From assembly GCA_018608625.1 (NCBI GenBank), contig JABAZC010000040.1, positions 1 to 64,000 on the forward strand: a stretch of 64,000 nucleotides of DNA. The letters run 5' to 3'. The notes beneath the pieces were generated by a model. The model was not told the DNA's origin. It did no database searches and saw nothing but the letters and a program-made list of their open reading frames with translations. This document shows, in pieces, positions 29,076 through 33,768 of this stretch. Positions within the stretch are counted from its first letter, which is position 1; the number at the start of each line of letters is the position of its first letter. This DNA comes from Flavobacteriaceae bacterium. Its GTDB lineage: Bacteria; Bacteroidota; Bacteroidia; Flavobacteriales; Flavobacteriaceae. A program made the translations under genes and the position numbers.

Positions 29076-30044
29076 ATGGCAAGAATTTTAACTGGTGTAC
29101 AGAGTACTGGAACCCCGCACTTAGGAAATATTTTAGGGGCAATTATACCTGCAATTGAAATGAGTAACGATCCAGAAAATGAATCTTATCTGTTTATTGC
29201 AGACATGCATTCTTTGACACAAATAAAAGATGCCAATACGCTTCGTCAAAACACCTATGCTACTGCTGCTACTTGGCTGGCTTTTGGCTTGAATATCGAA
29301 AAGACCTTGTTTTACAAACAAAGCAGCGTACCGCAGGTAACAGAATTATCTTGGTATTTGAGTTGCTTTTTTCCATTTTCAAGATTAGAATTAGCGCACA
29401 GTTTTAAAGACAAATCAGATCGGCTAGAAGATATAAATGGGGGCCTGTTTACATACCCAATGTTAATGGCTGCAGATATTTTACTGTACGATGCAGATAT
29501 TATTCCTGTAGGAAAAGACCAACTTCAACATATAGAAATGACCCGTGATGTTGCTTCAAGGGTGCACGCTAAGGTTGGAGATGTTTTTGTAATTCCAGAA
29601 GCTAAAATTCAGAAGGATAACATGTTAATCCCAGGAATTGATGGTCAAAAAATGAGTAAAAGCAAAGGAAATGTGATTGATATTTTTCAAACGGACAAGG
29701 CGCTTAGAAAACAAATCATGTCTATTCAGACCGACAGCACGTCGCTAGAAGCGCCGAAAGAGTGGTCAAGTTGTAATTCTTTTGCAATTTATAAATTACT
29801 AGCATCTGATTATCAAATCGCCGAAATGAAGAGAAACTATGAAGCTGGTGGATACGGATATGGCCATGCCAAACAAGCATTATTTGAATTAATTTGCGAG
29901 CAGTTTTCAGAGCAAAGAAAGCTCTATGCTTACTATATGGACAACTTAGAGGAAATAGATCAAGCTCTCGAAATTGGTGCTAAAAAAGCAGCTAAAGTAG
30001 CGAATGGTGTATTAGACCGTATTCGTGGAAAAATAGGCTATTAA
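29076..30044 (+). CDS. trpS: Tryptophanyl-tRNA synthetase
   Basis: Charges tRNA(Trp) with tryptophan. The 322-residue class I synthetase has the HIGH-like motif TGTPHLGN (11-18), the tryptophan-pocket region ADMHSLTQI, PVGKDQLQHIEMTRD, and KMSKS (192-196). It has its own -33/-7 promoter and is followed after 23 bp by the BI-1 family gene, which may share the transcript. Confidence 0.97.
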   Translation: MARILTGVQSTGTPHLGNILGAIIPAIEMSNDPENESYLFIADMHSLTQIKDANTLRQNTYATAATWLAFGLNIEKTLFYKQSSVPQVTELSWYLSCFFPFSRLELAHSFKDKSDRLEDINGGLFTYPMLMAADILLYDADIIPVGKDQLQHIEMTRDVASRVHAKVGDVFVIPEAKIQKDNMLIPGIDGQKMSKSKGNVIDIFQTDKALRKQIMSIQTDSTSLEAPKEWSSCNSFAIYKLLASDYQIAEMKRNYEAGGYGYGHAKQALFELICEQFSEQRKLYAYYMDNLEEIDQALEIGAKKAAKVANGVLDRIRGKIGY

Positions 30045-30067
30045 ACGAACAATTAACTTATTCTAAA

Positions 30068-30799
30068 ATGAGGAGATCAGGAAATCCCGCGCTGAGCAAA
30101 AGGACTTTTAATAATTTAAAATCAACCACTGGGGAAGTGATGACTCTTGACGGTACTGTGAACAAAACAGCCATGAGCCTCGCTATTTTGTTGTTTGCGG
30201 CCTACTACACGTACAGCAATGCAATTATGGATTACGTTTTGATTGGGTTGATTGGTGGATTTATTGTTGCACTAGTCACTATTTTTAAAAAAGAGTGGTC
30301 GCCTATAACAGTCCCAATATATGCCGTTCTGGAAGGGCTGTACCTTGGAGGTGTTTCTAAAATATTTGGGAACATGTTTGAACCAGGAATTGTTCCCCAA
30401 GCCATTTGCTTAACTTTGGGTATTTTAATTGCTCTTTTATTTGCCTACAAAACAAAAATAATTAAAGTAACAGAAAATTTTAAACTCGGTGTATTTGCTG
30501 CCACTGCTGGAATTTTAGTGGTCTATCTAATTAGTATTTTGATGAGCGCGTTTGGAGGCAGGGGTTTGCCAATCATGGACCCCACAAATACATCGATGAT
30601 AAGTATTGGGTTTTCTTTATTTGTGGTTGGGATCGCATCCCTAAATTTGGTTATGGATTTTGATTTTATTGAGCAAGGAGTAGAAAATGGTGCGCCTAAA
30701 TATATGGAATGGTATGGCGCTTTTGGGCTATTAATGACCCTGATATGGCTCTACCTTGAAATACTCAAGCTACTGGCAAAGACCAGCTCTAGAAAGTAA
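30068..30799 (+). CDS. Bax inhibitor-1/YccA family membrane protein
   Basis: A 243-residue protein with a short polar N-terminus (MRRSGNPALSKRTFNNLK) and about seven membrane helices ending with MEWYGAFGLLMTLIWLYLEI, the typical C-terminal part of the YccA-like branch of the BI-1 family. Members can act as pH-sensitive calcium leak channels or interact with the FtsH protease; which applies here is unknown. It follows trpS by 23 bp. Confidence 0.92.
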   Translation: MRRSGNPALSKRTFNNLKSTTGEVMTLDGTVNKTAMSLAILLFAAYYTYSNAIMDYVLIGLIGGFIVALVTIFKKEWSPITVPIYAVLEGLYLGGVSKIFGNMFEPGIVPQAICLTLGILIALLFAYKTKIIKVTENFKLGVFAATAGILVVYLISILMSAFGGRGLPIMDPTNTSMISIGFSLFVVGIASLNLVMDFDFIEQGVENGAPKYMEWYGAFGLLMTLIWLYLEILKLLAKTSSRK

Positions 30800-30846
30800 A
30801 TTTAGCTCATAAACTAAAAAAAGTCTTTTTTTTAATAAAAATTTTC

Positions 30847-30854
30847 TAACTTTG
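30847..30854 (+). promoter_or_regulatory. Promoter -7 element for the HU-like/SPOR gene
   Basis: TAACTTTG matches TAnnTTTG and ends 5 nt before the ATG at 30860, so the transcript would be leaderless or nearly so. No TTG at the -33 distance is visible; that region is a long T run. Confidence 0.5.
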
Positions 30855-30859
30855 GTTTC

Positions 30860-31789
30860 ATGCAATTAAGCCAGTACATAAGTGACTTACTATACCGCTA
30901 CGAATGTGTAACGATCCCTAGTTTTGGGGCGTTTTTATCACATCCTATTTCGGCACGAGTTAACGTTGATACAAGTGATTTTTATCCGCCACAAAAACAG
31001 CTTTCGTTTAACATTCAACTACAATCCAATGATGGATTATTAACAAGCTATATTTCTGAAGTAGAAAAAATTAGCTTTGAGATGGCGAATCGCAAAATTC
31101 AGAAACAGGTTATTCAACTCAAATCTCGTTTAGAAAAAGGCGAAACAGTTGAGTTTAAATATATTGGTGAATTGGCATCTTCTAAACAAGGGGTGATAAC
31201 GTTTGTTCCTTCTGATCATTTAAATTACATGACCCAGGCTTTTGGATTGGCAACATTTGTCTCTCCCTTAATTGAAAGAAAGGCCATTGTTAAGGAGATA
31301 GAAAAAGACGGAGTAATTGCTTTATCTTCCAGACGAAAAAGATCAAAACAATTCATGCGATATGCTTCTATGGCAGTTGTTTTTCTTGGGTTAAGCGGCT
31401 CTATTGGGTCTAACTTATATCTTGTACAAATTGAAAAAGAGAATACCCTTGCACAAGAACGTGCCACTGTAAGATTAGATACTAAAATTCAAGAAGCTAC
31501 CTTTATTATTGAAAATCCGCTTCCAGCTGTAACGGTAAACTTGAAAAAACAAAATGGAAGTTTTCATATTGTTGCTGGCGCTTTTAGAGTAGAAGCAAAC
31601 AGTAATAAAAAAATGCAACAACTAAAAGACCTAGGCTATAATGCACGCCGGATTGGGGTGAATAGGTATGGATTACACCAAGTTGTTTATGAAAGCTTTG
31701 AAACGCGAAAAGAGGCAGAAAAGGCTCTATTCAAAATTAGAAAAGCACACAACCGTGCTGCATGGTTGTTGATTAAAAACAGGCCTTAA
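30860..31789 (+). CDS. HU-like DNA-binding/SPOR domain transmembrane protein
   Basis: A 309-residue protein in three parts. Residues 1-140 resemble the HU-CCDC81 type of HU-like domains found in Bacteroidota (MQLSQYISDLLYRYECVTIP, FGAFLSHPISARVN, and the second unit around YIGELASSKQGVITF). A basic stretch (SSRRKRSKQF) precedes one membrane helix (about 167-189). Residues 233-307 are a SPOR domain (GSFHIVAGAFRVEANSNKKM, YGLHQVVYESFETRKEAEKA), which in other proteins binds denuded glycan at the division septum. The expected topology puts the HU part in the cytoplasm and SPOR in the periplasm, so it could link DNA or another cytoplasmic partner to the septal wall. That link is inference. It stands alone with its own promoter. 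Confidence 0.82.
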   Translation: MQLSQYISDLLYRYECVTIPSFGAFLSHPISARVNVDTSDFYPPQKQLSFNIQLQSNDGLLTSYISEVEKISFEMANRKIQKQVIQLKSRLEKGETVEFKYIGELASSKQGVITFVPSDHLNYMTQAFGLATFVSPLIERKAIVKEIEKDGVIALSSRRKRSKQFMRYASMAVVFLGLSGSIGSNLYLVQIEKENTLAQERATVRLDTKIQEATFIIENPLPAVTVNLKKQNGSFHIVAGAFRVEANSNKKMQQLKDLGYNARRIGVNRYGLHQVVYESFETRKEAEKALFKIRKAHNRAAWLLIKNRP

Positions 31790-31861
31790 TTTCTCCTATT
31801 GACTTAAATACTTAATGTTGTTCGGATCTTCGTCCTAAATAATCTTACATGTTATAAACTT

Positions 31862-32371
31862 ATGGAACCTAAATCCCCACAAGCCTCAAAAACAATAATG
31901 ACTGACACGGTCTTACCAAGTGAAACCAACGCCATTCATACTCTGTTTGGAGGTGAGCTATTGGCGCGGATGGATCGTGCTGCCAGCATATCTGCACAAC
32001 GACATTCCGGACAAATCGTGGTAACGGCATCTGTCAATCACGTTGCCTTCAAACATGCTGTTCCTTTAGGAAGTATTGTCACAGTTGAAGCAAAAGTATC
32101 TCGAGCTTTTAAAAGCTCAATGGAAGTGTATATCGATGTTTGGGTAGATAACAAAACCTCGAAGAGATCTGTAAAGGTCAACGAAGCTATTTTCACCTTT
32201 GTGGCTGTAGACGACAAAGGAACCCCTGTTTTAATTCCACAACTAGTCCCTGAATCAGAACAAGAAATTCAACGATTTGAAGGGGCGCTGAGGCGCAAAC
32301 AATTGAGTTTGGTTTTAGCTGGAAAAATGAAAGCGCAAGAGGCAACGGAACTTAAAGCGCTTTTTACATAG
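31862..32371 (+). CDS. Acyl-CoA thioesterase (hotdog fold, YciA/BACH-like)
   Basis: A 169-residue single-hotdog protein expected to hydrolyse acyl-CoA. It contains the signature HTLFGGELLARMDRAASISA and VVTASVNHVAFKHAVPLGS, with the conserved Gly-Gly and acidic residue, and a C-terminal extension after VPESEQEIQRF. The start at 31862 has a family-like MTDTVLPSETNAIHTLFGG a few residues later, so a start at the inner ATG is also possible. No strong promoter was recognised in the 72-bp gap upstream. Confidence 0.9.
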   Translation: MEPKSPQASKTIMTDTVLPSETNAIHTLFGGELLARMDRAASISAQRHSGQIVVTASVNHVAFKHAVPLGSIVTVEAKVSRAFKSSMEVYIDVWVDNKTSKRSVKVNEAIFTFVAVDDKGTPVLIPQLVPESEQEIQRFEGALRRKQLSLVLAGKMKAQEATELKALFT

Positions 32372-32396
32372 TTGGTGAGTATTTTGAACATAAAAC

Positions 32397-32597
32397 TTAC
32401 TTGATTTTGGAAAGACTCAAAGCCACACCAAAGCCAATTAGTCCTCCTCCAACAGTATTCTCATTTAAAAAAATACAAATAACGCCTACTATAAGTGACT
32501 TAATCCCAATTATTCTTTTTATTATTTTCAAACGACTTTTATAGTTTATAAATCCACTTTGAAGGGTTTTGAGTAGAGCTGTCTTTAAATATTCCAA
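32397..32597 (-). CDS. Possible small membrane protein (uncertain)
   Basis: A 66-codon frame overlapping the 3' end of the EnvC-like gene by 59 bp, starting with TTG. The product would be basic at the N-terminus and end in a hydrophobic stretch (IGIKSLIVGVICIFL, then GGGLIGFGVALSLSKIK). There is no ATG in the frame and I recognise no family. It may be a real small protein coupled to the upstream gene, or chance. Between the thioesterase stop and this frame nothing else is seen. Confidence 0.3.
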   Translation of the reverse strand: MEYLKTALLKTLQSGFINYKSRLKIIKRIIGIKSLIVGVICIFLNENTVGGGLIGFGVALSLSKIK

Positions 32598-33768
32598 AAC
32601 TAAGGATAGATTCCCCTGAGGCTTTATTTGTAATCACCTCTCCTATAGCTTGCTTTGTAACGACCTTATCTCCTTTATTCACGTAAAACTTAGACAGGTT
32701 TTTGTAAACAGTAATGTAGTTTCCGTGTCGAATCAAGATGGTGTTATTGCCATTTTTGGGTGTCATAATGCCTTGTACAACTCCTTCAAAGACAGCCCTA
32801 ACTTGCCCTGACTTACTTGTTGCGATACGAACTCCGTTGCTTTTAATCGTTAAAGAAGGGTCAATGGGGGACGGGTTATTTCCGTAACGTAATTTTACCA
32901 CACCATTAGCCACGGGCCATGGAAGTTTTCCTTTATTAGAAGTGAAGTTTGCAGCTAATATCTTTTGCTCAGGGGTCAATGAAAACACTTTAAGTTTAGA
33001 GGATTTACCTGCTTTTTTATTAGAAGCTGCTATCGCTGCCTGAATGATTTTTCGAATCTCTTTGTCAATCTTCTCTGTCTCGCGCTGCTTTGTTTTTATC
33101 TGGGCTGAATACTGAGATAAATCAGCTTTAATATCCTTTATAAGGGATTCTTGCTGCTGTAGCTCCTGGTCTAGGGTTGACTTCGCAATTTTATTTTCTG
33201 CGATAAGGATTTGCTTATCCTTTTTTTGCTTTAAGAGTTTAATATTAAGTGATTGCATGTTAGCGGTTTCGATCTTTATCAATTCTGCCTGCAGCTTTTG
33301 ATAGTCTGCATATTGCTTTATGTACTGCAAACGCTTATAGGCTTGCTGGAAATTACTTGACGACAGTAAAAACATAAGCTTGTTCTGGTCTGCCCGGCTC
33401 TTGTAGGCCTTAACAATCATCTTTGCATAATCCGCTTTTAAGGCTTTTAACTTTAGTCGTAATTTAGATATTTTGGTCTGGTTGCTATTGATCTCGCGTG
33501 TTAGAAGATTTGCTTGTTGGTTGGTGATGCTGATTAAATTTTTACGTTTTTTAATCTTGAAGTTTAAATCTTCAACAACAGAAAAAACGGACTTCTGTTC
33601 CTTTTTTCCCGCAAACAACAACGTACTTATTTGCTGTATTTCACGCTGTAATTCACGACGGCGTTGTTCTAATTCTTGCTGTTTCTTACTTTGAGAAAAA
33701 CCACTTAAGTGCAGCATTAATGTCAAAAATAGAACGGCGAATGTAAAGCGTGAGTTAGTTAATTTCAT
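32539..33768 (-). CDS. EnvC-like murein hydrolase activator (degenerate M23 domain)
   Basis: A 409-residue secreted protein: signal peptide (about 1-25, ending LSGFSQ), a long coiled coil (about 26-245) and a C-terminal LytM/M23 fold (about 285-405). The zinc-binding His and Asp of active M23 peptidases are not conserved: the segment that should start with HxxxD reads SNGVRIAT, and the HxH segment reads LSFGIFK. The structural LIRHGNYITVYKNL is kept. This is the state of EnvC and NlpD, which activate amidases rather than cut peptidoglycan. It is the last well-supported gene of a five-gene envelope operon and overlaps the DUF4292 gene by 4 bp. Confidence 0.9.
   Translation of the reverse strand: MKLTNSRFTFAVLFLTLMLHLSGFSQSKKQQELEQRRRELQREIQQISTLLFAGKKEQKSVFSVVEDLNFKIKKRKNLISITNQQANLLTREINSNQTKISKLRLKLKALKADYAKMIVKAYKSRADQNKLMFLLSSSNFQQAYKRLQYIKQYADYQKLQAELIKIETANMQSLNIKLLKQKKDKQILIAENKIAKSTLDQELQQQESLIKDIKADLSQYSAQIKTKQRETEKIDKEIRKIIQAAIAASNKKAGKSSKLKVFSLTPEQKILAANFTSNKGKLPWPVANGVVKLRYGNNPSPIDPSLTIKSNGVRIATSKSGQVRAVFEGVVQGIMTPKNGNNTILIRHGNYITVYKNLSKFYVNKGDKVVTKQAIGEVITNKASGESILSFGIFKDSSTQNPSKWIYKL

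Follow-up and report, generated by a model that had tools for sequence, protein, structure and literature searches.

Paired HU-like domains joined to a SPOR domain through a single predicted membrane helix in a Flavobacteriaceae protein: a candidate septal protein with a putative leaderless start

Proteins that carry two HU-type domains back to back, followed by a membrane helix and a SPOR domain, are already known as a kind, in that the HU pair has its own named Pfam models (the HU-CCDC81_bac/SPOR proteins; PF18174, PF18175, and PF05036). A 2017 survey of HU/IHF proteins by Burroughs et al., reportedly in Cell Cycle 16:1093, is said to describe these HU-CCDC81_bac/SPOR proteins, and its abstract is said to predict a role in chromosome partitioning for the Bacteroidetes members. 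The title of that work names chromosome partitioning (Burroughs, Kaur, Zhang, and Aravind, Cell Cycle 2017; cited in PMC7016017 and PMC5906684). The original prediction for the locus studied here held that a protein of this layout had no described function. This holds with respect to experiment, as we found none on the HU-CCDC81_bac/SPOR family among the literature matches listed, but it overlooks the partitioning role that, judging by the title, was predicted in 2017.

Among better-studied proteins, FtsN of Proteobacteria has one membrane helix, a C-terminal SPOR domain, and a short periplasmic segment that activates septal synthesis; to our knowledge, it is without any HU part. Known SPOR domains reach the septum through denuded glycans. 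Eukaryotic CCDC81, for which we know of no membrane helix or SPOR domain, gives its name to a further HU model. In PMC11961760, a protein within the axonemal microtubules of Tetrahymena is proposed to be CCDC81b. We infer from this that there is a precedent in CCDC81 for HU domains taking part in protein assemblies.

The stretch of DNA analysed here, hereafter the window, comprises 64,000 nucleotides of a Flavobacteriaceae contig (JABAZC010000040.1). The gene of interest and its parts are as follows.

30847 to 30854, + strand: TAACTTTG, a Bacteroidetes-type -7 box (TAnnTTTG) of a predicted leaderless start, beginning 13 bases before the ATG
30860 to 31789, + strand: the HU-HU-TM-SPOR gene, 309 amino acids, ATG start (open reading frame listing)
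30863 to 31033, + strand: HU domain 1 (HU-CCDC81_bac_1), with an arm-length segment and a conserved PPxK..FN motif (Pfam, alignment)
31034 to 31243, + strand: HU domain 2 (HU-CCDC81_bac_2), with an HU-like order of elements and no arm (Pfam, hhalign, low-confidence models)
31310 to 31360, + strand: basic stretch at residues 151-167, presumably cytoplasmic, with a net charge of +6 and low conservation (charge count, alignment)
31361 to 31426, + strand: predicted membrane helix, residues ~168-189 (hydropathy)
31484 to 31543, + strand: predicted periplasmic juxtamembrane segment KIQEATFIIENPLPAVTVNL, residues 209-228 (conservation in closer relatives)
31553 to 31765, + strand: SPOR domain (Pfam)

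Both HU models exceeded their Pfam cut-offs, with bac_1 before bac_2, which places the protein in HU-CCDC81_bac. PF18174 (HU-CCDC81_bac_1) covers residues 2-58 (E 5.7e-20; 71.4 bits against a cut-off of 26), PF18175 (HU-CCDC81_bac_2) covers residues 59-128 (E 1.1e-20; 73.7 bits against 35), and PF05036 (SPOR) lies at the C-terminus, at residues 232-302 (E 1.7e-7; 31.9 bits against 21). The highest 19-residue hydropathy window spans residues 171-189 with a moderate value of 1.60 and follows the +6 stretch at 151-167. The paired HU-like domains, the basic stretch with a single helix behind it, and the C-terminal SPOR domain that had been proposed at the outset are thus all supported at the level of sequence. 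By the positive-inside rule, our sole guide to topology, the protein would be bitopic with its N-terminus inside, in agreement with the proposal that the HU part is cytoplasmic and SPOR lies outside. We found no difference that matters between this protein and the HU-CCDC81_bac/SPOR proteins, and it looks like an orthologue belonging to that named family. In its own genome, the gene is the sole PF18175 match above cut-off. Weak matches to IL22, CRISPR_assoc, and orotidine decarboxylase were discarded.

Conservation of the fusion, suggested as a check on the original prediction, is confirmed in the order of the window genome, which we take to be the Flavobacteriales, and extends to other orders of the class, presumably Bacteroidia. 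PF18174 was found in 101 of the 119 genomes of the order, with one match in 99 genomes and two in the remaining two (G083 and G089, both with 3-5% contamination), and an N-terminal profile of the family matched 98 of the 119 class genomes, covering 67 of the 82 genera. In a phylum set of 198 genomes at least 90% complete, PF18174 matched 40, of which 36 belong to the same class and the other four have matches that fall below the Pfam cut-off; it missed 13 genomes of the class, some of which are recovered by the N-terminal profile (e.g. G134). Both HU models matched all 39 diverse family members at E<=0.01, and SPOR matched 37 of them (the 39 were selected from the window and 55 homologue rows, which include the window and two repeats). 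A family-specific SPOR profile matches 54 of the 55 rows, and in 53 of 55 the HU pair is followed by a 17-residue window exceeding 1.5, as for a helix. A 251-residue version, L064, from a family whose proteins are ~255 residues long (f5), has the HU pair and helix and no match to the family SPOR profile.

Fourteen of the 18 genomes of the order in which PF18174 was missing belong to one family with genomes of 0.3-0.6 Mb. FtsZ is present in 13 of these 14, and neither SPOR at E 0.01 nor PF18174 was matched in any of them; division with FtsZ can therefore run without this gene. SPOR was matched in a 308-residue frame of another genome missed by PF18174, G013, which may hold a diverged copy. A copy 72% identical to that of the window, with the same downstream gene order, lies on a contig titled 'uncultured Rhodobacteraceae' (L006), which is probably mislabelled or from a mixed bin. 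The copy L030 in G083 (assigned to another family, contamination 3, second copy present) is probably on a misplaced contig that belongs to the window's family, given its 48% identity and gene order. A phage or mobile origin was also considered, and a scan of viral contigs with the family alignment, which yielded 31 candidate stretches, confirmed no relative.

Profile comparisons support the HU likeness of the N-terminal part. With hhalign, the HU2 columns of 35 homologues aligned at a probability of 94% (E 1e-7) to 12 true HU proteins, which come from the same genomes or related ones (two of 14 HU rows, L093 and L095, had been dropped as cut or mis-started). HU1 aligned to the same set in register over helix-strand-strand with a probability of 27%, and SPOR, as a control, gave 0.8%; the comparison of HU1 with HU2 aligned only the ten columns common to both slices. 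Searched against the PDB up to E 1, the N-terminal profile matched 12 sequences, all of them HU or IHF and all over positions 53-109, the top match having an E of 0.017, so that none is significant alone. The Pfam Bac_DNA_binding model scored the window protein at 14.2 bits (E 0.052), below its cut-off of 22.4, and matched 18 of the 39 diverse members at E<=0.01 (best 2.5e-8). The eukaryotic model HU-CCDC81_euk_1 was weakly matched by four of the 39 relatives (best E 0.0011) and did not match the window protein at E 0.01. AlphaFold, given the window protein together with six of its close relatives (L003-L008), returned a mean pLDDT of 41.7 for the full length and 42.7 for residues 1-140, low values that are probably due to a lack of alignment depth; in these low-confidence models, residues 57-130 follow the HU order without the arm (helix-helix-strands-helix). 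In the alignment, HU1 retains an arm-length segment of about 26 residues, LSHPISARVNVDTSDFYPPQKQLSFN, and the arm of HU2 is missing. The resemblance to HU/IHF proteins lies in the HU2 profile match and in PDB matches that are exclusively HU or IHF up to E 1, whereas the present family differs in averaging acidic, in being a covalent pair, and in having lost one arm and kept half the basic residues in the other.

The host bacteria are largely without Shine-Dalgarno sites, and the start of the gene had been described as likely leaderless, which is likely right. The motif TAnnTTTG, which we take to be the Bacteroidetes -7 box consensus, lies 13 bases before the ATG in the window; 22 of 24 closer relatives have its first base at -14 to -12, or 23 if that base may be C. 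This count leaves out L032 and L040, which the start pattern did not recognise; L040 reads CATATTTG near the place of the box. By comparison, the same box position was found for four of 101 other genes from 11 long loci of relatives, with every ATG within the first 40 codons tried. In the window, a box at -15 to -11 precedes one of 54 genes tested, namely the HU-HU-TM-SPOR gene (of 59 open reading frames, three overlapping frames and two too near the ends were omitted). Among 51 upstream regions of a wider set, 25 have the box at -24 to -10, against 1.0 expected by shuffling. Farther from the window it is less regular, occurring in 19 of 55 rows of a second set that overlaps the first. The conserved position of the box in the closer relatives implies a conserved leaderless message, in which transcription would start at, or a few bases from, the ATG if the -7 box consensus applies. 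The conserved TAnnTTTG box, with the leaderless message that it implies, may be new. Rfam at gathering scores had no match in 30000-32600, and a scan for sigma-70 promoters found four against 3.8 expected. In L032 (1480-1520), the frame PLNFIQLKLSNYIS has no ATG, GTG, or TTG ahead of the first HU domain and may start at ATT or CTG.

The window gene holds the sole SPOR match at E<=0.01 in its genome, which is 90.7% complete. A single SPOR match per genome is unusual within the window's family, where 59 of 60 genomes have SPOR matches and 53 have two or more. We also identified a conserved segment about 20 residues outside the membrane, inside a poorly conserved linker, which takes the form KIQEATF..NPLPA in the window. 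Its IQxATF part is known from the alignment of the 24 closer relatives, where 23 have it and the exception reads IQSAEF; in these relatives, residues 204-231 have a conservation of 0.62, SPOR 0.59, and residues 190-203 0.41. The 24 are not independent, as the window and copies ~70% identical to it make up about six, several are of one genus, and L030 is included. Like the domains, their order, conservation, and charge, this segment is a direct reading of the sequence; as a periplasmic feature it may be new.

By its layout, the IQxATF segment recalls the short activating segment of FtsN, with which the protein shares one helix, a C-terminal and predicted periplasmic SPOR domain, and a conserved short periplasmic segment. 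Where FtsN has a short tail, this protein has ~165 residues that include the HU pair, and it also differs in its short linker. NCBIfam contains an ftsN model, and at E<=1 the window protein had no match to it; the sole NCBIfam listing at that threshold, casE (E 0.011), was discarded.

It had been suggested that the protein could tie either the chromosome or a cytoplasmic partner to the division site, and the charge and conservation of the HU pair bear on this choice. These were measured over 72 aligned homologues, obtained by adding the 39 diverse members to a 35-sequence alignment and removing duplicates (the 35-sequence alignment omits homologues of 295 residues or fewer, L019, L032, and L039, and the window's own copy, L001). 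Net charge of the HU pair averages -2.4 (sd 2.5, range -8 to +2), compared with +5.75 (range 0 to +10) in the 12 true HU proteins, and the arm has 2.9 lysines and arginines compared with 5.9, so that by both counts the family lacks the basic surface and arginine-rich arm of HU/IHF. K46 is the sole position of the pair with lysine or arginine in at least 70% of the 72 homologues. The remaining positions conserved at 0.85 or above are uncharged or acidic, including P20, G23, F25, P44, F50, N51, D58, and G59, and D58 is acidic in practically all 72; conservation is at least 0.97 at P20, G23, P44, F50, N51, G59, G103, F115, and G129. HU1 is the best conserved region of the protein (0.63, against 0.52 for SPOR, in the 35 sequences), as would be expected of a specific docking surface. 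Taken with the charge, this pattern favours specific protein docking over general DNA binding. DNA tethering thus gains no support, and the HU part looks more suited to protein than to DNA. The suggestion of a tie to the chromosome is weakened, since the pair is acidic on average and most basic residues of the HU arm are missing, and its companion, the cytoplasmic partner, fits better. Loss of the surface residues needed for binding DNA or protein had been named in advance as evidence against the idea as a whole; such loss is indicated for DNA and not for protein.

A chromosome tether, in which the HU pair would bind DNA or a specific site and SPOR would tie it to the septum to aid partition, is second to an FtsN-like protein adaptor and, while possible, unlikely. 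The HU homology found by Pfam, hhalign, and the PDB profile search speaks for it, as do the Bac_DNA_binding matches in 18 of 39 diverse members and the mention of chromosome partitioning in the 2017 title, but the pair that gives these matches is acidic on average. The HU1 arm, ~26 residues long and with P43, P44, and K46 conserved, averages a net charge of +1.8, which keeps contact with special DNA compatible with the data; its content of basic residues is nevertheless half that of arms in true HU proteins, and HU2 is armless. The basic stretch at 151-167 sits beside the membrane and could touch DNA, yet it is the least conserved region of the protein (0.30 in the 35 sequences), and the positive-inside rule needs such charge anyway.

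Gene context is mostly housekeeping and points to no partner. Across 82 loci of ~1.5 kb on each side (excluding L050, L109, and L121 as repeats, and with genes named by likeness to scanned representatives), 36 have kdsB upstream in the same orientation, 32 are followed by a thioesterase gene, and 21 have an upstream, divergent dprA. The order in the window is trpS (presumably, as named from its sequence), a Bax-inhibitor-like gene, the HU-HU-TM-SPOR gene, and a thioesterase, followed on the other strand by an M23 peptidase gene that weakly resembles EnvC/DipM, then lolB1 and a TPR-like gene. The Bax-inhibitor-1-like gene (30068-30799) occupies the place of the divergent dprA of many relatives; dprA was rejected as a partner, being present in 21 of 82 loci and absent beside the window gene.

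These neighbourhoods bear on a role in envelope constriction, whereby SPOR would sense the septal wall and the protein would link that wall to motors of the TolQ/TolA type and to invagination of the outer membrane. Certain families of the class have the gene directly before a TolQ-like gene (six of 82 loci) or, in one further locus, a TolA/TonB-like gene, but all seven adjacent cases lie outside the window's order, and most neighbours are housekeeping genes. A MotA/TolQ/ExbB match was found within ~16 kb of the gene in 11 of 39 genomes, with positions compared by eye: five directly beside it, and six at a distance of 4-15 kb within the window's order, mostly in frames of a second, longer kind. 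The M23 peptidase gene and lolB1, found 0.8-2.7 kb beyond the window gene on the other strand in the downstream direction, would fit such a role; the only MotA/ExbB match of the same genome, being on a different contig, speaks against it, and overall we regard this role as improbable. A general Tol-Pal operon link, promising in three loci, was rejected, the direct neighbour being of this type in just seven of 82. In L084, L085, and L086 (also L048, L059-L063, and L065), a TolQ-like or TolA/TonB-like gene comes after and TPR-side genes before, and the longer of these loci also carry folC behind. PorE may take Tol-Pal roles in Bacteroidetes, according to a suggestion in PMC12204202, whose main text has no word beginning with 'SPOR'. 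The lack of a consistent division neighbour in the 82 loci, together with the absence of the gene from reduced genomes that bear FtsZ, could instead point to a wall-sensing or regulatory protein outside division, with SPOR binding peptidoglycan generally. Wide occurrence with mostly one match per genome argues against such a protein, as does the established targeting of known SPOR domains to the septum via denuded glycans, and we consider it very unlikely.

We favour, at a probability of roughly one half, a septal protein of FtsN-like layout that uses its HU pair to dock a protein in the cytoplasm. In this bitopic inner-membrane protein, SPOR would bind denuded septal glycan and draw the protein to the division site from outside, and the covalent HU-HU pseudo-dimer, no longer a general DNA binder, would hold a cytoplasmic partner protein. 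Its FtsN-like role would be to link a cytoplasmic divisome or chromosome-partition protein to septal wall synthesis; topology, septal location, partner, and activity are all putative. Several findings weigh against this FtsN-like reading: a mean pLDDT near 42 in both AlphaFold runs, the missing match to the NCBIfam ftsN model, an FtsN that is not known to have an HU part, the 13 reduced genomes of the order with FtsZ and without PF18174 and SPOR, mixed neighbours, a net charge compatible with bent or special DNA, the Bac_DNA_binding matches in 18 of 39 diverse members, and the fact that a lone SPOR gene is no rule, given two or more SPOR matches in 53 of 60 family genomes. A fuller proposal, which we hold to be rather doubtful, is that the protein is the FtsN counterpart of Bacteroidia, with the HU pair as an adaptor reading a division or segregation protein, the IQxATF...PLPA segment switching on septal synthesis, and translation proceeding by a special route from the gene's own ATG. 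If this were true, a histone-like fold would have been turned into a divisome signalling module.

The fusion itself is little surprise; the charge pattern, the conserved periplasmic segment, and the conserved, predicted leaderless start are somewhat more so. Across one large bacterial class, the gene is common and mostly present once per genome. If the protein is septal, it would reveal a way in which these bacteria connect the cytoplasm with synthesis of the septal wall, and it would exemplify an HU fold adapted to protein binding. The conserved, predicted leaderless start would offer a way to study how translation begins in bacteria where Shine-Dalgarno sites are largely missing.
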